In this document: one piece after another, positions 2,311 through 33,974 of the stretch | Numbering within the stretch: the stretch's first letter is position 1 | Layout: each line of letters begins with the position of its first letter | NCBI RefSeq assembly: GCF_015207375.1 | Contig: NZ_JADEWY010000017.1 | Span: 1 to 64,000, forward strand | Origin: Coleofasciculus sp. LEGE 07092 | Lineage (GTDB): Bacteria > Cyanobacteriota > Cyanobacteriia > Cyanobacteriales > Coleofasciculaceae | Length of the DNA stretch: 64,000 bases | Reading direction: 5' to 3' | The notes under the pieces: generated by a model | The model's input: only the letters and a program-made list of their open reading frames with translations | What the model was told of the DNA's origin: nothing | The model's database searches: none | Translations under genes and position numbers: made by a program

Positions 2311-3291
2311 TTAAGAGCCAGACTTGTGTTTGCGCTGGAAATGTACCGCTATACTGACAGCGCCGAGTCCCAACAAGCCAAGGATTGAACTCGGTTCTGG
2401 AACATCTTTGGGTTCGACAACAGGCTCAACAACAGGCTCAACAACAGGCTCAACAACAGGTTCGACTACTTTCGGCGGCGGTGGTGCTGTTCCTAGCGAC
2501 TGACCTTTTAGGAATACAACAGAATCAAGTAGACCATCACCCACATCTTGAATCTCAATAGTTAGGCTATTCCTGGCATTTTTGTTAAGCAACCCCTCAA
2601 AGGTCAATTCCTTAGTAAAACCGTCTAACTTGGTGTTGGTGATAGAACCTGTGGGATTGTTGATGTAGTCGGGGTGATAAGACGAAGGGTCTAGAGGGTT
2701 AGGGATTAGATTATTAATAGTAACGCTATTTCCGTCACTTAACAGGGCTAAGTTGACATTATTGAGAAGCAATTGAAACGAGTCATTAAACTCACTGCCT
2801 CCAAACTCAACAAACTCTTCTGAGCCAAAAACATATTGAAAAAACACTTTGTCTGCCGTACTGTCGGCGTCAAAATCGATCTGTAAAATCATGTCGTCCC
2901 CTGGCACTCCTGCAATTCCCATGCCTTGGATGCCAAAATCTTTGCTGAGATCATTGAGGGGATTGATTGCACCGTTTTCGTCAATGTGGGGGACTAGTCC
3001 TCCATCTTCAGTGTTTGTAGCTGGTATTTCTCCCACTTCACCTGTACTGAGAACTATGCCTGAACCCAAACCAAATGGGTCATCATTGAACAGACCAAAT
3101 GCTTCAGCATCTCCTGTGGTTGAGAGCGAGAAGTTGCTCAGTCCTGTCGTATAACCGAGAAGGGCGTTGAGCAAATCTCCCTCTTGGTTATTTGGGGTAA
3201 TCGTAAATGCCATTGTCGGTGTTCCGAGCAAGCTGAAAGTCGCAGTCGCAGCTAAAGTAACGGTTGTAGCTACTTGGTTTAAAATACCCAT
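2311..3291 (-). CDS. choice-of-anchor L domain PEP-CTERM protein
   Basis: 326 residues. An N-terminal hydrophobic signal peptide (about 1-28, ending near TPTMAF) is followed by a choice-of-anchor L type domain (about 50-270) with the diagnostic VFGSEEFVEFG motif. Next comes a proline/valine linker of tandem EPVV units (about 276-293). The C-terminus is a PEP-CTERM sorting signal: VPEPSS, a hydrophobic helix and a basic tail. PEP-CTERM proteins are recognised by an exosortase and exported to the surface or extracellular matrix; no exosortase is in the window. The ligand and exact role are unknown. It stands alone between the atp genes and a plus-strand gene. Confidence 0.85.
   Translation of the reverse strand: MGILNQVATTVTLAATATFSLLGTPTMAFTITPNNQEGDLLNALLGYTTGLSNFSLSTTGDAEAFGLFNDDPFGLGSGIVLSTGEVGEIPATNTEDGGLVPHIDENGAINPLNDLSKDFGIQGMGIAGVPGDDMILQIDFDADSTADKVFFQYVFGSEEFVEFGGSEFNDSFQLLLNNVNLALLSDGNSVTINNLIPNPLDPSSYHPDYINNPTGSITNTKLDGFTKELTFEGLLNKNARNSLTIEIQDVGDGLLDSVVFLKGQSLGTAPPPPKVVEPVVEPVVEPVVEPVVEPKDVPEPSSILGLLGLGAVSIAVHFQRKHKSGS
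2411..2461. repeat. 12-bp tandem repeat coding EPVV units
   Basis: A 12-bp unit (GGCTCAACAACA on the plus strand) is repeated about four to five times inside the linker of the PEP-CTERM protein. Copies are almost identical in DNA, which suggests recent slippage and length polymorphism. Confidence 0.8.
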
Positions 3292-5451: not shown

Positions 5452-6384
5452 TCAAACCGCAGTCGAGTACAAAGAGCGGTTCGTCAATTCTGGCACCCTA
5501 GAGTTGCTGACTTGGACATCATTAAAGTCAATCCCATAAAGCTTTGTCCCTCTCAAATCTGCGTCACTCAAATCTACTTTTTTCAAAATTGCCCACGTCA
5601 AGTTAGCATCCTCTAGAGATGCTCCTGCTAGATTCGCTCCTGTGAGGTCGGCTCCTTGCAGATTCACCCGATCCAGTTTAGCGTCGGTTAAATTAGCGGC
5701 TGTCAAGTTAGCTCCTTCTAAATTAGCACCACTCAATCTGGCTTCTCTAAAGTTAACTGCCTCTAAATCAGCACCACCTAGATCTAAGCCCTTTAACCAA
5801 GCTGCCCTACAGTTAATAAAACTTAAAGACGCTCCATACAGGCTCGCCCCAATTAGTCTTGCCTCGGATAAATTAGCCCATTTAAAATTGACACCATTAA
5901 GATTTGCATCTCGCAAATTGACCCGTTCTAACTGTGCCCCGCAGAGATTGGCACCCCACAAGTTTGCCCGTCTTAAGTTGGCACCACTGAGGTCAGCGCC
6001 ACTTAGTTTGGCTCCTGGTAGTTTCGATTTCACCATAAAAGCACCGCTAATAGTGGCTTTGGTCAGATCTGTGTCTACGAGTTTGGCATCGCTCAATTTA
6101 ACATATGTTAAATTTGCCCAGTTCATCTGAGCACCACTTAGGTCTGATTTGATTAAAAAGGCTCTAGTCAAATCAGCACCAACCAGATTAGCGCCTCTAA
6201 GGTTGACTCCGAGGAGAGTCACTCCTCTTAAATCGGCTCCACAGAGGTCAGCGCCTTCAAAATTTCTGTTTCCCTGTTCGTAAAGTCTGAGAAGTTGTCT
6301 GACTTTCATTGGGGACGTTTTCCCTTCACTATGTGTTGAACTGAAGTTTGGCAAGACTTTAAGAAATGACTTAGTGTGTTTCAT
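5452..6384 (-). CDS. pentapeptide repeat protein
   Basis: 310 residues. After a 35-40 residue lead the protein is an almost uninterrupted run of A(D/N)LXX pentapeptides from about residue 40 to 290, for example ADLCGADLRGVTLLG. Such repeats fold into a right-handed quadrilateral beta-helix. Cyanobacteria encode many of these and most have no known function; DNA-gyrase protection is known only for MfpA/Qnr-like members and is not implied here. No transmembrane segment or fused domain is visible. ATG start preceded by an A/T-rich leader. Confidence 0.9.
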   Translation of the reverse strand: MKHTKSFLKVLPNFSSTHSEGKTSPMKVRQLLRLYEQGNRNFEGADLCGADLRGVTLLGVNLRGANLVGADLTRAFLIKSDLSGAQMNWANLTYVKLSDAKLVDTDLTKATISGAFMVKSKLPGAKLSGADLSGANLRRANLWGANLCGAQLERVNLRDANLNGVNFKWANLSEARLIGASLYGASLSFINCRAAWLKGLDLGGADLEAVNFREARLSGANLEGANLTAANLTDAKLDRVNLQGADLTGANLAGASLEDANLTWAILKKVDLSDADLRGTKLYGIDFNDVQVSNSRVPELTNRSLYSTAV

Positions 6385-16572: not shown

Positions 16573-18117
16573 TTAAGACAACTTCGTAAGCAATCCCAAG
16601 ATTTTTTTCGAGGTCGGTGTAAGAAGTGTGCGGCGATAAGCATCTGCTGCTTTCTTAATCCCTTCGGCTTGAGTTGGATAGGGATGAATTACACTCGATA
16701 AGCCGTTCAAACCAACCTTGTTAACAATCGCTGTAGTCACTTCACTAATTATTTCTCCAGCATGGCGAGCAACAATGGTTGCTCCCAGAATTGTATCAGA
16801 ACCTTTCGTGTGGTGAATCTTGACAAATCCTTCTTCTTCACCATCTGCGATCGCTCGATCTACACTACTAAACGGAATCTTAATGGTACTAATATCAATT
16901 CCCGCCTTTTGTGCTTCATGTTCGTACATTCCCACATGGGCAATTTCTGGATCAGTATACGTTACCCAAGGCATGACTAAGTTGCTGAGTTTAGAACGTC
17001 CCAAGCCAAAGGGAGAAAAGAGAGTATTCTTAATTACAATTCGGGCAGCGGCATCGGCGGCATGAGTAAACTTCCAGTTCATGCAGATGTCACCAGCCGC
17101 ATAAATCTTAGGGTTTGCTGTCTGGAGATAATCATTCACCTTAACTCCTTTGCGATCGTATTCTACGCCAACTGCTTCTAGATTTAGACCTTCAACATTA
17201 GGCGCACGTCCTGCACCGACTAATATTTCATCAACGGTGACTGATTCTGGCTTTCCATTACAGGTATAATAAAGTGTTCTGCCTTCAGGAGTCTTTTCTA
17301 CACGCTGTAGCTGAGAATCTAGCACTAAATCAATTCCTTCCCGGATAAAGGTGTTCTGAACAATTTCTGCGGCATCAGTATCCTCTTTATTTAAGAGGTG
17401 AGAATGTCGGTGAAATAGAATTACTTTACATCCTAAGCGGTGGAAAGCTTGAGCTAATTCACAACCAATGGGACCACCACCAATTACAGCAAGGCGTTCA
17501 GGAGGTTGAGTGAGGGAAAAAACTGTTTCATTGGTGAGAAATCCCGCCTCTTCAATCCCTTCAATTGAGGGATGTACGGCTCTAGCTCCCGTCGCAATAA
17601 CGGCTTTTTTATATCGCAGAATCTTATCACCAATTTCAATACTATTATTTCGTAGGAAATGACCTTCTCCTAAGAAAACATCAATGCCGATTTTTTGAAA
17701 ACGTTGAGCTGAATCGTGATGACTAATTCCGGCACGTAGCTTCCGCATTCGTTCCATTACTGCCGGAAAATCAACCTCTATCTTTTCTGGAGAATGAATG
17801 CCAAAAGCGCGAGCATCCTTCATCTCAGCAACTACACGAGAGGAGCGAATAATGCACTTGGAAGGGACGCAGCCGACATTTAAGCAGTCTCCTCCCATAA
17901 GATGCTTTTCAACTAAGGCAACTTTTAATCCTACATCGAAACCTGCTGCACCTGCGGCTACAACTAATCCAGCCGTGCCAGCTCCAATCACAACTAGGTC
18001 GTAACAATCGGCGGGTTGAGGATTAGTCCAATCAGGGGGATGAACATAGGACACTAGTTTTTGGTTATGTTCATCCATTGGTATAATATCTACTTTTTTT
18101 AAGGTTGAATTTGACAT
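16573..18117 (-). CDS. mercuric-reductase-like flavoprotein disulfide oxidoreductase
   Basis: 514 residues. The FAD motif VVIGAGTAGLVVAAGAAG (about 43-60) is followed by the redox-active pair GGDCLNVGCVPSKC (near 76-86). The NAD(P) motif LAVIGGGPIGCELAQAF lies near 210, and the C-terminal dimerisation domain carries HPYPTQAEG, the catalytic His-Glu of the lipoamide-dehydrogenase/mercuric-reductase family. It lacks an N-terminal HMA domain and the C-terminal vicinal Cys pair of true MerA, so mercury reduction is not supported. It lies downstream of the TVP38 gene, and TVP38-flavoprotein fusions exist in other bacteria, so a membrane-linked redox role is likely. Confidence 0.88.
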   Translation of the reverse strand: MSNSTLKKVDIIPMDEHNQKLVSYVHPPDWTNPQPADCYDLVVIGAGTAGLVVAAGAAGFDVGLKVALVEKHLMGGDCLNVGCVPSKCIIRSSRVVAEMKDARAFGIHSPEKIEVDFPAVMERMRKLRAGISHHDSAQRFQKIGIDVFLGEGHFLRNNSIEIGDKILRYKKAVIATGARAVHPSIEGIEEAGFLTNETVFSLTQPPERLAVIGGGPIGCELAQAFHRLGCKVILFHRHSHLLNKEDTDAAEIVQNTFIREGIDLVLDSQLQRVEKTPEGRTLYYTCNGKPESVTVDEILVGAGRAPNVEGLNLEAVGVEYDRKGVKVNDYLQTANPKIYAAGDICMNWKFTHAADAAARIVIKNTLFSPFGLGRSKLSNLVMPWVTYTDPEIAHVGMYEHEAQKAGIDISTIKIPFSSVDRAIADGEEEGFVKIHHTKGSDTILGATIVARHAGEIISEVTTAIVNKVGLNGLSSVIHPYPTQAEGIKKAADAYRRTLLTPTSKKILGLLTKLS

Positions 18118-20337: not shown

Positions 20338-20364
20338 GATACGAAGTTGACGTCAAAACGGATT
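20338..20364 (-). promoter_or_regulatory. candidate ECF-sigma promoter upstream of pit
   Basis: On the minus strand: AATCC, 16 bases, CGTATC. The spacer also shares TTTTGA and a terminal AACTT/AGCTT with the two other copies at 21822 and 27754. Its distance to the pit ATG fits a short leader of about 20-30 bases. Confidence 0.65.
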
Positions 20365-20395
20365 TGCCAGCCGAGATGTCATCATTAGGAAATTC

Positions 20396-21157
20396 TCACA
20401 GTGATGTTCCCCCGGTCATCACCGTTTCCCCAGTCGGCTGCAAAAGTCCTTGTGATGGTTCAACGGTAACTACAACTGAAGAATTCCCTGACATAATATT
20501 GTCCAATGGGAGTTCTACGAACACTTTTCCTTGAGAATCAGGCTTAAATTCACCACAGTAGATTGTTTGCCCATCAGCAACCGCCCACAATCGATAAATT
20601 TGGTCTTTGGGTAGGGGCGCTAGATTTTGGAGCGTTAATACTGCAACCTCAGAGCTTGGCACAACCACCATACTTCCAGAGGCTTGAGGGATTGCATTCG
20701 TTCCTTTGAGGGATACCAAGCGATTACTAGGCTGACGAAGTAAAGCGATCGCTTCCTCGTATTGCGATAATTCAGCACGAATGGTGACAAGTTCTTGATG
20801 GAGGCGATAACTGTATAAGCCAAGTCCAACGATAACAGAAGCAGCAACACTTCCTGCAACACCAAGCCAAGCTTTTGGTCTTCTCCACACTCGGTTTGAT
20901 ACTCTTCTTGTCGAACTAGTATCGCTATCTCTAGCCGCTTGCAAAATCTGAGAACCTAGTGTTGCAGGGGGTGAACTTTCCGGTAAACTTAAAGGAATCA
21001 GTGTCAAAGTTTTCTGCAAGTAGCTTACTTCAGTGGCTAATTCGGGATTAGAGTCCAATAACTGATTAACCGAAGCCACTTCTTCTGGAGTCAAATCCCC
21101 AAGGACGTAGCTTGCTAAAAGTTCATTTAATTCTTCGGAGTCTTGAAAGTCTACCAT
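20396..21157 (-). CDS. RskA-like anti-sigma factor
   Basis: 253 residues. The N-terminal cytosolic anti-sigma part (about 1-90) contains LNELLASYVLGDLTPEEVAS. One transmembrane helix (about 105-125, AWLGVAGSVAASVIVGLGLY) follows, then a short coiled coil. The C-terminal extracytoplasmic RskA domain (about 165-253) contains LPKDQIYRLWAVADG. RskA-type proteins bind their ECF sigma partner until a signal triggers proteolysis. Its ATG overlaps the last codons of the sigma gene by 7 bases, the classic coupled arrangement. The N-terminus lacks an obvious HxxxCxxC zinc motif. Confidence 0.92.
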   Translation of the reverse strand: MVDFQDSEELNELLASYVLGDLTPEEVASVNQLLDSNPELATEVSYLQKTLTLIPLSLPESSPPATLGSQILQAARDSDTSSTRRVSNRVWRRPKAWLGVAGSVAASVIVGLGLYSYRLHQELVTIRAELSQYEEAIALLRQPSNRLVSLKGTNAIPQASGSMVVVPSSEVAVLTLQNLAPLPKDQIYRLWAVADGQTIYCGEFKPDSQGKVFVELPLDNIMSGNSSVVVTVEPSQGLLQPTGETVMTGGTSL

Positions 21158-21717
21158 CGCTGTTCTACCAAATCTTGCAATAGTTGTCTGAGCTTTAACA
21201 GACCCTTGCGCTTGTAAGTTTTTACGGTTCCTATCGGCATATTCAAGTCTTGGGCAATCTCCGATTGACTTAAGCCGTCATAGTACGCCATTTCCAGAAC
21301 CTGTCGATGATTAGTAGGCAGTTCAGAAAGTGCTTCGCACACACGGCTCGACATTTCTTCTAAGGAAGCCTTATCCATCAACGTACTCCAACTTTCAGGC
21401 GGAAGGCTGCGAGTCCATCGTTGAAGACGCTGCCACTGTGCTTGCATCTGACGGTGGCGGTCGATTGCTTTTGAGCGGGTTAAAGTTAATAGAAAGACGA
21501 GCATAGAACCTCGCTTTGAGTCATAAGTACCTCTACTCCTAAGGGTGAGAAAGACTTCTTGGGTTAGGTCTTCGGCTTCTTGTTGGTTGCCTAACATCCG
21601 CAAAGATGTGCGGTAAACGACCTCTCCATAGCGCTCATAAAGGATGCCCAAGGCTAATAGGTTGCCCGATCGCAACGCTTGAAATACCTCGGCATCCGTC
21701 TGGTTGGATAACATCAT
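21151..21717 (-). CDS. ECF-type RNA polymerase sigma factor
   Basis: 188 residues: only regions sigma-2 and sigma-4, as in ECF sigma factors. Region 2 (about 25-95) contains EAEDLTQEVFLTLRSRGTYD, and region 4 (about 125-185) the helix-turn-helix with YYDGLSQSEIAQDLNMPIG and VKTYKRKGLLKLRQLL. The downstream overlapping gene is an RskA-like anti-sigma factor. A 27-bp AATCC-N16-CGTATC element about 105 bases upstream suggests autoregulation. Sigma factors with RskA partners (SigK type) are known to use ATCC-type -35 elements, which agrees with this motif. Confidence 0.95.
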   Translation of the reverse strand: MMLSNQTDAEVFQALRSGNLLALGILYERYGEVVYRTSLRMLGNQQEAEDLTQEVFLTLRSRGTYDSKRGSMLVFLLTLTRSKAIDRHRQMQAQWQRLQRWTRSLPPESWSTLMDKASLEEMSSRVCEALSELPTNHRQVLEMAYYDGLSQSEIAQDLNMPIGTVKTYKRKGLLKLRQLLQDLVEQRW

Positions 21718-21821
21718 TTATAACCATTTGTCTTGACACAAAAGCCAAAGAATGATAAATTCGCCTATCATCGACTGCCGTTTTTGCTCGATTCCAACCT
21801 ATTGATCTTGGATTTATCAGT

Positions 21822-21848
21822 GATACGAAGCTGACGCTCAAAAGGATT
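21822..21848 (-). promoter_or_regulatory. candidate autoregulatory ECF-sigma promoter
   Basis: Minus-strand AATCC-N16-CGTATC, with the same spacing and partly the same spacer as the copies upstream of pit and thioredoxin. A start about 7 bases downstream would give a leader of about 95-100 bases before the sigma ATG. Confidence 0.65.
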
Positions 21849-21932
21849 TATCCGGTTGGGTCAAAATTCAGTTTCCCTCTGAATGGTGATCCTAAGCGTC
21901 CTTGAATTGTGTAGTAGAGAGTTTGGCAAGAT

Positions 21933-22538
21933 ATGGCAAGTCGAGATTGGTTAGTAACGAATGATGGACAATATGAAGTCTGGGAAGGCTCGGTAAGCGA
22001 CGCGGAATTATCAACGAGTCCCTATCGGCTCTATCGGTTTTTGACGGATCTTGAAGATATTCTGCTGAATTCTACCGACAATCGCCGCCGACTCCAGGCA
22101 ATTTACCCCATCGTGCGTCGGTTGCTGAATAGCTCAGAGTGGTTGCAAGGTGAATATTTAGAACCCGATCCCGAAACAGGGTGGTCGGTTCTCATGCTCT
22201 ATGATGAGCCGGATTTTCCCTTGACGGTGCAGACAGTGGTTTGGCTGCCTAGTAAAGTGTCACCCCTTCACAATCATGCCACTTGGGGGGTTGTAGCACT
22301 GATCAGTGGACAGGAAAAAAACACCTTTTGGAGACGGACTGATAATAACGGACGCATTGAACAAGTTGGTGAGCTTATCCTAAATCCCGGAGAAATTATT
22401 GGTTTGATGCCAGATGCTATTCATAGCGTTGAAGCGCTCGGTGACGAACCGACGGTTAGCTTCAATTTGTATGGTGAAACAAACTATGAGCAGCGATTTG
22501 AGTTTGATGCAGTTAACTGTACTGCTAAGAATTTTTAG
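21933..22538 (+). CDS. cysteine-dioxygenase-family cupin protein
   Basis: 201 residues. The cupin metal site is visible: HNHATWGVVALISGQEKN (about 115-132) gives the His-X-His and Gln/Glu ligands. PDAIHSVEAL (about 168-177) gives the third His. The layout matches type I cysteine dioxygenase-like thiol dioxygenases, which oxidise cysteine or mercaptocarboxylates with O2. Substrate specificity is not readable. It is divergent from the ECF sigma gene and convergent with the phnC remnant. Confidence 0.82.
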   Translation: MASRDWLVTNDGQYEVWEGSVSDAELSTSPYRLYRFLTDLEDILLNSTDNRRRLQAIYPIVRRLLNSSEWLQGEYLEPDPETGWSVLMLYDEPDFPLTVQTVVWLPSKVSPLHNHATWGVVALISGQEKNTFWRRTDNNGRIEQVGELILNPGEIIGLMPDAIHSVEALGDEPTVSFNLYGETNYEQRFEFDAVNCTAKNF

Positions 22539-22554
22539 GTTCGAGGGTATCTTT

Positions 22555-23235
22555 TCATGACCGATAGATACGGTTGATATCCGAGGAACTTAACTGACGG
22601 GTTGGTATATCTAGCACGAGTTCTCCGGCTTGAATACCCAGAATGCGATCGCTATAATGTTTTGCCAGTTCCACTTGATGGAGATTGCACACAACTGTCA
22701 GTCCCTCCTGAGTGCAGAGCGATCGCAACAAACCCAAAACAATGTGAGCCGTTTCTGGGTCAAGACTAGCAATCGGTTCGTCTGCTAGAATTAAACGCGC
22801 CCGTTGCGTTAAAGCCCGAGCGATCGCAACTCGCTGCTGCTGTCCCCCCGACAAGCGATCGGCGCGTTGAAATGCGACATCCAGTAGTTGCACTCGCTCT
22901 AGTGCTGCCATTGCTTCATTTAACAAGCTGATGGGAAAAACTCCCAGGAAACAGCGCCACAAGGGTAACTCCTGCAAGCGTCCCCCAAGGTAATTTTCCA
23001 AAGCACTGCGGCGGCGGACTAAGTTAAATTGCTGGGCGACTGTAGCAATTTGAGTGCGGCTATGACGTAAATCCTTGGCAGAACAATTGGTTAAATCCTG
23101 TCCCTGAAACCATACTTGCCCCCGATCAGGTTTCACCAGTTGGAGAATGCAGCGCAGCAGCGTAGTTTTCCCCGCACCAGAAGGTCCCAAAATGGCGGTA
23201 AAAGTGTGAGGTTCGATACAGAAGCTGATATCTTT
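22555..23235 (-). pseudogene. phnC: phosphonate ABC transporter ATPase PhnC, 5'-truncated by IS
   Basis: The frame opens inside the IS inverted repeat and runs KDISFCIEPHTFTAILG, then the Walker A GPSGAGKTT, ending normally at IYRS. Signature [15 protein letters not shown], Walker [13 protein letters not shown] and H-loop CNLHQVE are intact. Roughly 25-30 N-terminal codons, the start codon and the promoter are missing. The fusion point with the IS end is at about 23235, and an in-frame TAG lies just upstream. No phnD or phnE remains in the window. Likely non-functional unless rescued from the internal TTG near 23190, which would lack the first beta strand. Confidence 0.88.
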
Positions 23236-23251
23236 GGGTCTTCCGTACTTA

Positions 23252-24279
23252 GTGTGCTAAAGGGTTAGGATAATGCCACAAAAGTAAAGCGCGTATAGTA
23301 AAATTCTTAAAATTCCTGAAGCCAAAGCCACACCGTTTTAATAGTTTCAGTTTATTGTTAACGCCTTCAACGACTCCATTAGTTGTTCTCCTTTCAAAGT
23401 ACCCGACGACTTCAGCAAACCATCTTTTTATGGCTGATGCACTTTTTTTATAGTAATTCTGAGCCTTGTTTAACCAATCAATTATTTTTAAAGTTCCCTC
23501 ACCCAGGTTTTTACTTTCTTCAAATATCTGATACAATTCTTCTTTTAATGAATGCATTATTCCAATTAAAGGCGAAGCTTCTTTGACTTGCTTTAATTTT
23601 TTAGTTTGCTTTTGTGATAATTTAATTTCCGATTTGAGGAGAGTATATTTACTTCCCTTTAAGCTACCGAATAGTTTTGCTCTTTCTTTACCGTTCAAGG
23701 CTTCGGCTGCTTTCTTTTGGTCAATTCTTGCCTTATTTAACTCTTCATTAACCATTTTGCTAATATGAAATCTGTCCACGGTTACTACGGCATTCGGGCA
23801 TATTTTATGTACTAACGATTTATAGTTTCCCGTCATATCCATGCTTACTTCTTCTATTTGTAACAGAACCGCTTCTCCCCATTCTTCCATTGTCTCCTTT
23901 AATTTATTGTTTTTGGCTACATTAATAACATCACTGTGAATGACTTGTTTGGTTATAGCATGAGCACATCTATGAGTGAATGGCTTTTTGTTACCAACAA
24001 AATCCAAGTTTTCACTGAAAGGTTTTTGACAATTTTCACACTTAAATCTTCGACGATTTACGTAAAGCATTACTTCTCGGTTACCTATAGGTAACCGAGA
24101 AGTAAATGTCTTTTGTTTTGATGAAGACGACGGCTTGTATGACCACAACGGGGGCATTTAGCTGTTTTCTCTTGTACCCGAACAGAGACAATTAATGTTT
24201 CTTCGGCATCTTGGATATTTTCTACTATAACTCCTGGCAGGTTTATGAGCTTAGTCATTTCTCTTTTTATTCTTGCCAT
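23252..24279 (-). pseudogene. ISL3-family transposase, frameshifted and internally deleted
   Basis: The N-terminal part (24279 down to about 24090) has the zinc-ribbon CPRCGHTSRRLHQNKR. It then runs into a stop, while the next frame continues LPIGNREVMLYVNRRRFKC. One base is missing at the 36-bp palindrome. Downstream, HSDVINVAKNNKL is followed directly by KETMEEWGEAVL. The segment that in ISL3 transposases carries the first catalytic Asp (GIDEI region, about 60-70 residues) is absent. The second Asp (SMDMTGNY) and the Glu (GVVEGVNNKLK) remain. The element is therefore unable to move by itself. Confidence 0.88.
24070..24105. repeat. perfect 36-bp palindrome at the transposase frameshift
   Basis: Each arm is TTACTTCTCGGTTACCTA and its exact complement, with no unpaired loop. 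One arm encodes the conserved GNREV; the other lies exactly where the reading frame is broken. Confidence 0.95.
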
Positions 24280-24338
24280 TTTTGCTTATTATTTTCAGGC
24301 TTACTTTAATAGTTTAGCACACTAAGTACGGAAGACCC

Positions 24339-25872
24339 CCATTCACTTGCAGCCTCACATTCGGGTTAACAAACCAATTGATGCCAGCCGTAAGCGCCCA
24401 GAGGGTATCGCCATCCGAACCCGTGTCAGCATCAAGATGGGCGACTTCTCCTCGCAACAGTGCCTGTACGCCACCGTTGGCATCGCCACTGAGGAAATAC
24501 GCAGGTTGAATGAAGCCACCGTACAAACCCACATCGCTACCTGTGGGAGAATCAAACCAAAACGCCAGTCCTTCAGTCCGAAAACTCCAGCGTCCCTTCT
24601 CCCAAAACAAATCGCTGCTGACTCCGAAACGCTCTCCTTCAATTGGCACAGACACGTAACGGTTAAAGCCCAAATCAACCAAACTCAGTGTCTGCTCTTG
24701 TTCAATGCTGTAGTCAAAACCAAGTCCCAGATTTAATTCATCCGTTGCCTGATAGGTTAGTTTGACCTGAGTCTCTTTGGAATCATTATTGTCTGAGAGG
24801 TTAGCATTGGCACTGCCATTGCCGTTGAACAGTCCGACAAAATATCCCAGCCGTTGCTCCTCCCCTAGCTTGCCGTGAAGCATTGCCCCAAACTGCACGT
24901 CCAGTGCTGGCAGCAAGAACATACTATTGAGTGCCAAGTACCGCTCAACGGTGTCAATGCTGCGGGAACTGCGAAAGTTTTCTGTGCTAAAGGGTGTGGT
25001 AAATTTGCCTGCTCGCAGTTGCAAAGCTTCCTCAGCGATTTCCCAATTAAGACGGGCTTCAACTAGCGCAAAATCTGAGTCAGTCGATTGGGCTGTACCC
25101 GGTGCGCCATCAAACTCGACGAAGATTTGATAATCGTCGAAGAGCGTAGCCAGAAAGTCAATGCGGGCGCGACGGATGGAAAAATCCCCATTCCCATCTT
25201 CTCGTTCCAAGTCACTGTCAAATAAGGAACCCAGAACCTGCACGTACCCAAGGATACGCAACTCGTAGTTTTCGCCTGCGATGAAAAAACCTCCTCCTCC
25301 TGGGCGTAGTCCAACTTGGGGTTGTTTCTGTTCGCGTTCGGTTATGACGTCTTCGACGGTTTGCTGAATCTGTTCCTCAGTCGTGTCTGCGATGTCTTCA
25401 CTGGGCGCTAATTCATTGAGTCGCTGATTTAGGCGTTGTATCTCTTCTCTGAGGCGAGCATTTTCGGCTTCGAGTTGCTCTTGTCGTTCGAGTAACTGCT
25501 GTAGTTGTTGGCGAATTTCCTGTTCTTCTATTTGAGAAAAGGTTTTTTGTGCCAATTCAATGTTTCCATCATCTTTCGGGTTAAGGTTCTCCTGCACCCG
25601 CTCAATAGGTTGTTCGCCCTGGAGTGAGACTTGAATTTCTTCCTCATCACTTTCCTGAGTTAGGGAAATGTTCTCTTTGCCCTCAATTAACGGTTCTGGT
25701 GTTATGGAAGAAAGAAACTCTTGCTCCCCTGCGAGTTTCTGAGAAGCGCTTTCCCCGACGTGGTGCGTCTCTAAACGAGTGTCGATTTCATCATTTTCTT
25801 GAGCAACGGCATAGGAGCATAGGCTTAACCCTTGGGGATGAATAGAACGGTGATTTATATGAATTATCGTTC
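24339..25872 (-). pseudogene. phosphate-selective porin (OprO/OprP type), damaged at both ends
   Basis: The frame is open from about 25870 to the IS. It begins with a signal-peptide-like end (SLCSYAVAQEN), then an acidic stretch, then a coiled coil (LERQEQLEAENARLREE). A porin barrel follows (YELRILGYVQVLG, DFSIRRARIDF, LRAGKFTTPFS, then GFNRYVSV). The C-terminal strands end at NVRLQVN and are replaced by eight codons of IS sequence, so the last barrel strand(s) are lost. No ATG, GTG or TTG is in frame before the GTG at 25597, so the start and most of the signal peptide also appear lost. Confidence 0.8.
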
Positions 25873-26239
25873 ATATCATCGAATCAATAAAGCCCTTAGT
25901 GAGGATTCGCCAGCTCAACAAACCTACTGAGCGCTCCTGAATCGCCCCAGTCCATGAGGTTTATCACCTAAGCTGTTTCGGTATTAAATATCAGCTAAAT
26001 GAGTTTTTGCTGAAAGCCAGATGAATTGTGGCTGAACCTGTGAGACGAATATGTCGTCAGCGCTTCCTTGTACGACTGATATATTGACCGTGAATGTTAA
26101 CGGCGTAAGGAACTAGGTAGGTCGGGAGCATCCCAATTTTGCGCGTTAGCTCTTTTTAGAGGGTTGAAACCATTGAAATATCGTTGCTTTTGGGAATGGT
26201 GTTTCCAAAATGGGATGCTCCCTCTAGCTTCTGCCTTTT
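25873..26239. other. intergenic region holding a MITE-like element
   Basis: 367 bases between the porin remnant and ccdA. Only the inverted-repeat element at 26124-26222 stands out. The porin promoter, if it survives, would be in 25873-26120; none is obvious. Confidence 0.5.
26124..26222. repeat. MITE-like element with 16-17 bp terminal inverted repeats
   Basis: GGGAGCATCCCAATTTT at the left end and AAAATGGGATGCTCCC at the right end form terminal inverted repeats around a 66-bp noncoding core (99 bp in all). No target duplication is obvious. Non-autonomous, and the parent element is not in the window. Confidence 0.65.
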
Positions 26240-27091
26240 TTAGGCTCCCAAGAACCATCGAGTGCCAGTAAACAGGTAGTACGCTCCAGTTAAAATCAGA
26301 GCCACACTGCCAAAGTGAATAATTGCCTCCGAATGTTTTAATAACTGCTTGCTTTGTTTTGCCAGTCCGGTAAACAAACTCGCCAGGAAAATCAGCATGG
26401 TGTAACCCAAAGCGTAGCTAACCATCGTTAGTGTGCCTAAGAGTTGAGAGCCAGTAGCCGCCGCTGCTGCCAGCACCGCAAACAGCACCGGACTGGCACA
26501 GGGAGAACTCACCAAGGCAAAGGTTAACCCTACTCCATAAGGTCCAGCCTGGGGGAGATTCACATTCATCTGCGGTAAGGGTAACTTAACTACCCCCATC
26601 AACCACAAACCCATCACAGCCATAATCACTCCCACGACTACATTGATATAGCCTCGGTACTCCACCATGACGGCTCCAGCAAAGGAGGAGACTAAGCCAA
26701 ACAGACTCAAAATTGTTACAGCCCCCAAAACAAATAAGCCAGCCTTGGTAAAAGCATCCCAACGGGATTTAATGTTCAACGTGCCGATATAACTGAGGTT
26801 AACGGGCAACAGCGCCAGAATGCACGGAGATACACTGGCAAGCAGTCCACCAATAAATGCCAAGGGCAATAGCACTAGGGGATTAGCAGTATCTTGCTGG
26901 TCAAACCACTGCTGATAGCGGTTTTCGACGAGAGATATCGCCCGTTCGATTGGATGGCTGATGACGGGTCCTAGGGTGATAACCAACACTAGGGAGAGCA
27001 ATCCCAATCCCCCGTAAATCAACCATTTTTTTGAAACTTTAAAACGTCGAGAAGCCTTGTGATCAGATGATGACTGAGGTAGTTGTGTCAT
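26240..27091 (-). CDS. ccdA: CcdA/DsbD-like thiol-disulfide transmembrane protein
   Basis: 283 residues. A basic N-terminus and one helix (about 25-45) are followed by a CcdA six-helix core. The paired cysteine regions are SVSPCILALLPVNLSYIG (about 86-103) and SSPCASPVLFAVLAAAA (about 195-211). These are the two redox cysteines that carry electrons across the membrane. It lies 19 bases after the thioredoxin lipoprotein gene on the same strand, so electrons from the cytosol probably reduce that partner. The unit starts at the ECF-type promoter at 27754. Confidence 0.9.
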   Translation of the reverse strand: MTQLPQSSSDHKASRRFKVSKKWLIYGGLGLLSLVLVITLGPVISHPIERAISLVENRYQQWFDQQDTANPLVLLPLAFIGGLLASVSPCILALLPVNLSYIGTLNIKSRWDAFTKAGLFVLGAVTILSLFGLVSSFAGAVMVEYRGYINVVVGVIMAVMGLWLMGVVKLPLPQMNVNLPQAGPYGVGLTFALVSSPCASPVLFAVLAAAAATGSQLLGTLTMVSYALGYTMLIFLASLFTGLAKQSKQLLKHSEAIIHFGSVALILTGAYYLFTGTRWFLGA

Positions 27092-27110
27092 GAAATTCTC
27101 CTTACCTCAG

Positions 27111-27722
27111 CTAATTTTTTGCTAGAGCAGTGTCGAGAATCTGGGTGTAGTCATCCTGATTGGGATTATTTTTGAACATCGCTAAAATGTTGCCAGTCGC
27201 TGGGTCAACAATTGCCACGGTGCTAGTTTTACTCTTAGTATCTTCTAGGAATTTCCCCAAACCTAATTTTTCCGCCTTGGCTTGTGTTTCTTCGAGTGTG
27301 GCTTTATCCGTTACATCTAGCACGACAAAGTTAACCTGATCGCTGTATTCCTGTTTCAATTGGGTCAGAGTGGGCGCAATATTCTTGCAGCTAGCACACC
27401 AGGTCGCAAACACATCCACTACCACGGGTTTACCCTGAAGTTCTGTAGCTAGGGGATTTCCTACCGATTGAGCTTTAGCAGCACAAGGGTTGGCTTTAGA
27501 GGCACAGGGATTGGCTTTAGAGGCGCAAGGATTCTCTTTGGCGGCACAGGGATTGGCTTTAGAAGCACAGGGATTTTCTTTGGCAGCACAAGGATTAACT
27601 TGGTTGGTAGTACCCGTGTCTGGAGTGTTAGTCTTGGCGGCGCAAGGGTTAGAGCAAGCAGCAACAAGTCCCAGACTCAGCATTGAAGCAACAGCAAGTG
27701 TAGCCAGATACTTAACTCTCAT
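27111..27722 (-). CDS. thioredoxin-fold lipoprotein with NPCAAK/NPCASK repeats
   Basis: 203 residues from ATG 27722, preceded by AGGA. A longer ATG at 27749 lies only about 5 bases from the promoter -10 box and is unlikely. A lipoprotein signal peptide ends LGLVAAC. A repeat zone (about 23-85) has seven NPCA(A/S)K units, each with one Cys. The thioredoxin domain (about 95-203) carries VDVFATWCASCKNIAP with the CxxC. It is probably a periplasmic or lumenal reductase driven by CcdA. The Cys-rich repeats could bind metal or act as a thiol relay; this is inference. Confidence 0.88.
   Translation of the reverse strand: MRVKYLATLAVASMLSLGLVAACSNPCAAKTNTPDTGTTNQVNPCAAKENPCASKANPCAAKENPCASKANPCASKANPCAAKAQSVGNPLATELQGKPVVVDVFATWCASCKNIAPTLTQLKQEYSDQVNFVVLDVTDKATLEETQAKAEKLGLGKFLEDTKSKTSTVAIVDPATGNILAMFKNNPNQDDYTQILDTALAKN
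27478..27603. repeat. 21-bp tandem repeats coding NPCA(A/S)K
   Basis: About six 21-bp units alternate between two subtypes (AAKE and ASKA codings), which suggests 42-bp higher-order duplication. Copies are nearly identical, so repeat number may vary between strains. Confidence 0.85.
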
Positions 27723-27753
27723 AAAATCCTCATCAGTACGACGGTTCATAGGG

Positions 27754-27780
27754 GATACGAAGCTAAACTCAAAAAGGATT
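27754..27780 (-). promoter_or_regulatory. candidate ECF-sigma promoter upstream of thioredoxin-ccdA
   Basis: Minus-strand AATCC-N16-CGTATC. This is the third copy of the element. The -10 box lies 32 bases from the ATG at 27722 and supports that start over the upstream ATG. Confidence 0.65.

Positions 27781-30380: not shown

Positions 30381-33974
<3,594 letters not shown>

Follow-up and report, generated by a model that had tools for sequence, protein, structure and literature searches.

A conserved putative ECF-type promoter box at a sigma factor/RskA locus of Coleofasciculus sp. LEGE 07092 and its probable role in arsenic and envelope-thiol stress

The locus described here lies in the first 64,000 nucleotides of contig NZ_JADEWY010000017.1 (forward strand, assembly GCF_015207375.1) of the cyanobacterium Coleofasciculus sp. 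LEGE 07092; this whole stretch is referred to as the window. It carries adjacent genes for an extracytoplasmic function (ECF) sigma factor and an RskA-type anti-sigma factor, together with three copies of a two-part box, AATCC-N16-CGTATC. To judge from sequence comparison, the box behaves as a conserved ECF-type promoter, and the genes behind it are probably switched by an ECF sigma/RskA pair that controls its own operon and responds to arsenic and envelope-thiol stress. The features concerned are as follows.

16573 to 18117, minus strand: MerA-like FAD oxidoreductase (PRK06370 subfamily), third gene after the pit box; NF004991, 869.5 bits
18233 to 19021, minus strand: VTT-domain (TVP38/DedA-like) membrane protein, second gene after the pit box; PF09335, 105.2 bits
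19186 to 20310, minus strand: Pit-family (PHO4) transporter; PF01384, 211.8 bits; likely start ATG 20301 or 20298 rather than TTG 20310
20338 to 20364, minus strand: putative promoter box of pit (then vtt and the MerA-like gene), in the gap after rskA; candidate pit starts 27-39 nt on
20396 to 21157, minus strand: RskA-type anti-sigma factor, 253 aa; PF10099, 86.4 bits; NF052375, 134.2 bits (cut-off 100)
21151 to 21717, minus strand: ECF sigma factor, 188 aa (PRK12519 subfamily); Pfam Sigma70_r2/r4; NF009172, 238.5 bits (cut-off 222)
21822 to 21848, minus strand: putative promoter box of sigma-rskA (AATCC-N16-CGTATC); 104 nt from box end to sigma start codon
26240 to 27091, minus strand: CcdA/DsbD-type transmembrane thiol-electron carrier, next after thioredoxin; PF02683, 44 bits; PF13386, 37.7 bits
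27111 to 27722, minus strand: thioredoxin-like lipoprotein; seven NPCA(A/S)K repeats, then a WCASC thioredoxin domain; PF00085, 50.8 bits
27754 to 27780, minus strand: putative promoter box of thioredoxin-ccdA; 31 nt to the likely start ATG 27722

The three copies are exact and the spacing is 16 in each, as the initial annotation had it. Its remark that the spacers share TTTTGA stands insofar as the hexamer occurs in all three, although at different offsets. The thioredoxin reading frame as listed starts at 27749, 4 nt past the box; ATG 27722 is the likely start instead; it opens a lipoprotein-type signal sequence, and a box-led Cys-repeat homologue (L098) begins alike. With two mismatches allowed, the short pattern matches the window 17 times against 12.6 expected, a count reached in 12 of 100 shuffles. 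At this tolerance the pattern is not clearly rarer or commoner than chance, and the significance therefore comes from the exact matches, their clustering and the spacer.

A scan of the draft genome of the strain (6,709,720 bases, 296 contigs) reveals four exact copies of AATCC-N16-CGTATC, namely the three window boxes and one on contig C122, the spacer of which resembles a CRISPR repeat as judged by eye. The degenerate 27-base consensus AATCCNTTTNRRSNTNARCTTCGTATC with up to three mismatches finds the three window boxes alone, with none in the reversed-pattern control, so that the earlier statement that the window holds no fourth copy extends to the draft genome at this tolerance. Many random copies across the genome, which would have pointed to a mobile repeat, were not found, and with three copies genome-wide a mobile repeat is rejected. 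A looser pattern with up to two mismatches matches the three window boxes perfectly, one further site at one mismatch and 54 at two; since these 58 matches face 63 in the control, no further member of the regulon is claimable in this genome. It could be argued that three short motifs resemble one another by chance, since by its 11 fixed bases alone the pattern should turn up a few times in a genome, and an unrelated exact copy is present. However, three exact copies within 7.4 kb are expected ~7e-6 times somewhere in such a genome (uniform-base model, all windows allowed for), and the box is conserved in relatives. On these two grounds chance similarity is ruled out, and we assign it next to no weight.

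Conservation was followed with the box pattern ATCC-N-TTT-N8-RY-TTCGTAT in 388 genomes of the order, where it gives 36 matches in 23 genomes, compared with nine in seven genomes for a reversed-pattern control. A variant with an 18-base spacer gives seven matches in five genomes and none in the own genome. A sigma search over the same genomes, which scored up to eight candidates per genome, found an orthologue of at least 61% identity in 14. Of these 14 genomes 12 contain the box, compared with 11 of the remaining 374 (Fisher p 5.7e-15; 8e-14 when the own genome is left out). Both p-values overstate the association because the genomes and loci are related and the boxes are not independent events. 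A protein scan with the window sigma produced 70 loci. In the four closest of these (76-85% identity), the box stands before sigma in L007, L008 and L009 and is missing in L006, the closest, while L006, L007 and L009 carry boxes before genes neighbouring sigma. Taken over the 14 orthologue genomes, the box lies within 400 nt before sigma in nine, window included, in seven of them with CGTAT, in one with CGTAA (G155) and in one with CGTAG (G036). A putative two-part promoter of fixed spacing is thus found before the sigma gene itself and is common to the target operons. The search for the same boxes upstream of orthologues in related cyanobacteria, which the initial annotation had proposed, was positive, though five of the 14 lack one before sigma. 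The loci of these orthologues, which have no ATCC-N16-CGTA site in the preceding 400 nt, are L129, L126, L173, L171 and L174.

For comparison of the boxes themselves, a set of 33 distinct copies was used, which leaves out duplicates of the same contigs (L006, L007, L008, L009, L012) and also excludes six off-theme matches (G167, G180, G127 twice, G353, G188) that count in the 36. The consensus of this set reads TAaATCCtTTTT-N3-tT-N-aGCTTCGTATca. Across relatives the spacer is fixed in three features: ATCC is followed by a T-tract, column 13 is a T, and aGCTT precedes CGTAT. Several columns left free in both search patterns are kept nevertheless; counting the A of ATCC as 0, they are A at -2 (31/33), T at 13 (33/33) and T at 8 (30/33). 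Such strong conservation of spacer positions would also fit an operator to which an ordinary regulator protein binds, or a small mobile repeat, and this explanation gains from genomes G111 and G381, where a box precedes ArsR yet the best sigma relative found is 45% identical, as well as from the five orthologues with no box in front. It conflicts with the fixed 16-nt spacing and the -10 position of CGTAT, with the orientation of the window boxes, each of which points at the gene behind it, with the fact that occurrence tracks the sigma orthologue across genomes, and with the own genome, in which there are only three copies and all are upstream of genes. We consider an operator or repeat quite unlikely, and the box is better described as a probable ECF-type promoter.

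Two further sites deserve mention. In L127 (G111), at 5595-5900, a box-like site stands before what remains of RskA (62 aa), and a sigma gene would not fit there; apparently sigma has been lost and the promoter left behind. In L091, L092 and L108 (G167, G180, G127) the gene for an HhoA-like protease (by eye) is preceded by a near-identical box-like site, ATCCTTTTATNTAGACGCTTCGTAT, the upstream context of which is unlike that of the sigma boxes.

The sigma and RskA reading frames overlap by 7 nt. The sigma factor possesses regions 2 and 4 only and is followed by a membrane protein with an RskA domain, the plan of an ECF sigma factor with a class I RskA-type anti-sigma factor. RskA is predicted to comprise a helical N-terminal part, a long membrane-region helix and an outer beta domain (mean pLDDT 72.8, pTM 0.46; ~80-92 in the beta part). 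SigK promoters have an ATCC-type -35 element, and the initial annotation had termed the sigma factor SigK-type. The RskA-partnered plan agrees with this, but the score of 116.5 bits with the SigK model NF007228 is below the cut-off of 226, the redox cysteine pair of SigK is absent, and no mpt83-sigK-rskA cassette shows among the ten window proteins scanned, so that identity with SigK is rejected. The window sigma contains a single cysteine (127), which is not conserved, and 23 of 53 aligned sigmas have no cysteine at all. The rest of that annotation is supported at the level of prediction: the box is of ECF promoter type, its place before sigma/RskA suits autoregulation, and pit and thioredoxin-ccdA would belong to a small regulon.

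The genes behind the box in relatives centre on arsenic. Looking up to 320 nt beyond each of the 33 boxes, one meets sigma first in eight cases (the window and seven other loci), a ~188-aa secreted protein or VTT in six, ArsM in five, ArsR followed by PstSCAB in four, thioredoxin in three, DUF547 in two (by eye), Pit and DUF3179 in one each, and no recognised gene in three; the secreted protein had no match in family scans. Of the 36 matches, 26 are on-theme, that is, before sigma, thioredoxin or Cys-repeat lipoprotein (the latter in G367), Pit, ArsM, ArsR-Pst or the secreted-protein/VTT group, 25 of them within 320 nt and one at 544 nt from a VTT gene (G119); four others precede DUF547, DUF3179 or unassigned genes. 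Boxes stand directly before arsenosugar ArsM/ArsS genes in L114, L117, L122, L126 and L129. Family models name these genes above cut-off in the L114 row (score/cut-off in bits: ArsM 573/400, ArsS 410/300, arsenosugar glycosyltransferase TIGR04283 264/182), and ArsM again in L132; ArsR scores 77.5 against 55 bits. The gene order in L132 (G036) is sigma, RskA, box, secreted protein, VTT, ArsM, ArsS, VTT, MerA-like, and its box after rskA occupies the same position as the pit box of the window. The VTT and MerA-like proteins of the window are 81% and 83% identical to those of the box-led arsenosugar row in Gloeocapsopsis (L114), and homologues of the window VTT sit inside such rows. The MerA-like protein is not a true mercuric reductase; its TIGR02053 score of 403.6 bits is below the cut-off of 454, and the C-terminal cysteine pair that is a feature of MerA is missing. 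Arsenosugars are major organoarsenicals of aquatic food webs, and the box targets in relatives suggest how these cyanobacteria may turn on arsenic metabolism. With the putative promoter narrowed to 25 bp, few genes in the set and a single residue as candidate sensor, arsenic control in cyanobacteria becomes directly testable.

As a separate observation, the box-led row of L121 contains, at 2456-3140, genes for MerF and a CopZ-type metallochaperone between VTT and a peroxiredoxin/MerA-like pair, hinting at mercury as well as arsenic.

The initial annotation had linked phosphate uptake with a thiol-redox relay. This phosphate theme is not borne out, since the targets of relatives are centred on arsenic: ArsM, ArsS, arsenosugar glycosyltransferase, ArsR, VTT and MerA-like proteins. 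A regulon in which sigma raises phosphate supply, by Pit in the window and PstSCAB in relatives, along with the redox relay would account for Pit behind a box here and PstSCAB behind boxes in four relatives. In those four, however, the Pst genes follow ArsR, with ArsM next in two (L125, L129), and the remaining targets have no known phosphate role. Pit orthologues (E <= 1e-70) are present in 29 of the 388 genomes, own included, and 11 of the 28 loci outside the own genome were read. ArsM (75% or more) or ArsS lies within ~5 genes in eight of the 11, and ArsJ with an adjoining GAPDH gene is found in a ninth. A row of ArsR, MIP channel, ArsC and ArsH genes is present in L245 as well; the Pit loci of L246 and L252 have no confirmed arsenic neighbour. 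This proximity in 9 of 11 loci indicates that the window Pit is better read as a putative arsenic-associated carrier than as a general phosphate system. We regard phosphate supply as an improbable purpose of the regulon. Most cyanobacteria are described as having Pst and no low-affinity phosphate system in PMC4010505.

The thioredoxin, which contains ten cysteines in all, is connected to the sigma factor by gene order as well as by the box. Six genomes (L010; L177, which has the same genes as L012; L171; L174; L180; L172) have a thioredoxin-CcdA pair immediately upstream of sigma-RskA and in the same orientation, and this arrangement is evidence for the link that does not depend on the motif. 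In L172 a box is situated between the two gene pairs. A box before thioredoxin is observed in the window, L113 (G015) and L172 (G155).

A sigma tree of 53 rows, 48 of them different, places the window sigma in a clade of 26 with support 100/99. The RskA of the window has one cysteine, Cys201 (residue 200 in the model), which falls within a strand of the outer beta domain as predicted. This cysteine is kept in the partners of all 26 clade rows and in those of an eight-row clade at 44% identity, seven members of which have thioredoxin or CcdA near sigma. In ten rows of a sister clade Ser or Trp takes its place. The neighbouring genes there encode cytochrome b561, MsrA, redoxin-DsbD and a molybdoenzyme that resembles MsrP but scores below the MsrP cut-off, several of them behind ATCCAA-type sites. 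Counted over 47 of the 53 rows (duplicates L006, L007, L008, L009 and L012 and the RskA remnant L127 left out), the cysteine occurs in 31 loci; arsenic or thioredoxin-CcdA neighbours accompany 22 of these 31 versus none of the 16 others, and methionine-repair neighbours none of the 31 versus eight of the 16, counts that follow the clades. L018 and L020 possess the cysteine and have no recognised neighbours, and a four-row clade has neither. A fold search with the outer domain gave a Cu,Zn-SOD-type beta sandwich as the best match in the PDB (E 0.005) and nothing at E <= 0.001, and is not used as evidence.

The sister ECF/RskA clade, represented by L013, L015, L016, L017, L019, L023, L178 and L179, looks like an envelope methionine-repair regulon as far as its gene neighbours tell; a Met-rich repeat lipoprotein is also found in L017 and L021. 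It resembles the window system in its RskA partner and in promoter-like ATCC-N16-CGTA sites before sigma and neighbours in several loci, and differs in a -35 side that is mostly ATCCAA, not ATCCTTTT, and in the replaced RskA cysteine. Some hypochlorite-response systems, e.g. in Brucella and Haemophilus, reportedly tie an ECF sigma factor to hypochlorite or envelope oxidative stress. These systems involve other ECF groups and anti-sigma types, and are closer to the sister clade than to the window system.

RskA-type proteins bind and restrain their ECF sigma factor. In the reading that we favour as the probable one, the three boxes would be promoters of the adjacent sigma factor, which RskA would hold at the membrane. 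An envelope stress detected outside the cytoplasm, with arsenic or some other thiol-reactive challenge as its likeliest source, would act on RskA, possibly through Cys201, and release sigma. Free sigma would then transcribe its own operon, the pit-vtt-MerA-like row and the thioredoxin-CcdA pair, the last of which may carry electrons outward and so keep or repair exported thiols. The promoter-like identity of the box, its conservation, its co-occurrence with this sigma clade and the genes after it are legible in the DNA itself; the inhibition of this sigma, the inducer and the part played by Cys201 are what we infer.

The closest rival shares most of these steps. In it, sigma/RskA responds to thiol or oxidative stress of a general kind outside the cytoplasm, and arsenic genes became part of the regulon secondarily in some lineages since arsenite attacks thiols. 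It differs from the arsenic and envelope-thiol switch in the signal alone, and the odds that we give to the two overlap; taken by itself it has somewhat less than an even chance. The thioredoxin or CcdA genes near sigma in the close clade and in the 44% clade suit it, and so do the neighbours of the sister clade, among which no arsenic genes are recognised. According to PMC9861118, M. tuberculosis SigK-RskA likewise controls a CcdA-family gene, dipZ. It is less compatible with the arsenic genes, which are box-led in many genomes and exceed thioredoxin among box targets, and with Pit and the VTT-MerA-like pair, which have no obvious role in plain oxidative stress.

A more specific version of the switch can be entertained as a speculation that we think rather unlikely in its full form. 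As(III), or arsenic-induced thiol chemistry, at the predicted extracytoplasmic Cys201 of RskA would free the sigma factor, under which the synthesis of arsenosugars, the transport of arsenate/phosphate and a thioredoxin-CcdA relay directed outward would be coordinated, and the sister clade would have swapped the cysteine for Ser/Trp and turned to methionine-sulfoxide repair. If this is true, a single family of sigma factors would be served by two envelope sensors that differ in their chemistry, each matched by a repair regulon. The sister clade serves as a natural experiment in which a change of signal by an anti-sigma factor can be studied.

Several observations weigh against the arsenic and envelope-thiol switch. 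Pit carriers are usually viewed as discriminating poorly against arsenate, and inducing Pit under arsenate would be odd unless the carrier of this clade is selective. The ATCC-N16-CGTA site was not found within 400 nt before sigma in genomes G244, G297, G015, G055 and G367, and the nearest sigma orthologue (85%) is among these five. Six of the 36 box matches are off-theme, preceding an HhoA-like protease in three cases and CheW-like and PEP-CTERM-like genes (names by eye), with one geneless, and the DUF547 and DUF3179 targets have no explanation. In the own genome, ArsM (C64) has no box upstream, and no box was found in the region of ArsS on another contig (C32). Four of the six thioredoxin-CcdA-sigma operons (L010, L171, L177, L180) have no box in the 400 nt before thioredoxin, and the sequence of L174 ends 34 nt upstream of that gene. 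With L172 the only one of the six to have it, the genomes that support the thioredoxin link by gene order are mostly not those that support it by the motif.

Among known systems, the SigK-RskA regulon of M. tuberculosis (mpt83, mpt70, dipZ, sigK-rskA) is similar in joining an ECF sigma factor to an RskA-type membrane anti-sigma factor, with a redox link and a CcdA-family gene among the targets. As described in the passages retrieved from PMC7509140, SigK is freed from RskA on reduction of its own Cys133-Cys183 pair. This is in contrast to the window system, where the sigma factor has no such pair and the conserved cysteine sits in RskA. The targets differ as well, as they include arsenic genes and no mpt83/mpt70-type domain, with no fasciclin-type Pfam match among the ten window proteins scanned. 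In Synechocystis, arsenite induces thioredoxin and glutaredoxin genes while arsM is not induced, as stated in the retrieved passages of PMC4010505. That response (arsBHC, arsI, arsM) also combines arsenic detoxification with thiol stress, but ECF control is not mentioned in those passages. The part of a study on transcription factors of thermophilic cyanobacteria that was retrieved mentions ECF families and arsenic separately (PMC10775510). No ECF sigma factor tied to arsenic or arsenosugar genes in cyanobacteria was found among the titles and abstract openings listed from the open-licence literature, which is weak evidence. The system thus appears to be an ECF/RskA regulon of known plan, with a target set not met in the literature searched and a candidate sensor residue.

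A recurrent neighbour of the Cys-type loci is the gene next to the sigma box, a homologue of which lies near sigma in 10 of the 31 loci with the RskA cysteine and in none of the 16 others.

21933 to 22538, plus strand: cupin-like protein (by eye), divergent from sigma; no Pfam or NCBIfam match

The own genome has a second ECF paralogue of 51-53% identity (L176, contig C18, 9565-10203), beside which BLAST recognised no RskA. Between the sigma and thioredoxin operons, at 24314-25597, lies an OprO/OprP-type porin gene without a box of its own, with weak similarity to the selenite/tellurite porin ExtI (25.8 bits, cut-off 150). An insertion element at 23244-24330, with a 302-aa transposase-like reading frame (23249-24157, by eye) and the ends CGTACTTAGTGTGCTAA / TTTAGCACACTAAGTACG, lies where a truncated gene for a phnC-like ABC ATPase (22555-23190) has its 5' end. 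We also note a GyrB-like reading frame of 1192 aa at 30396-33974, with a long internal insert that resembles an intein by eye.

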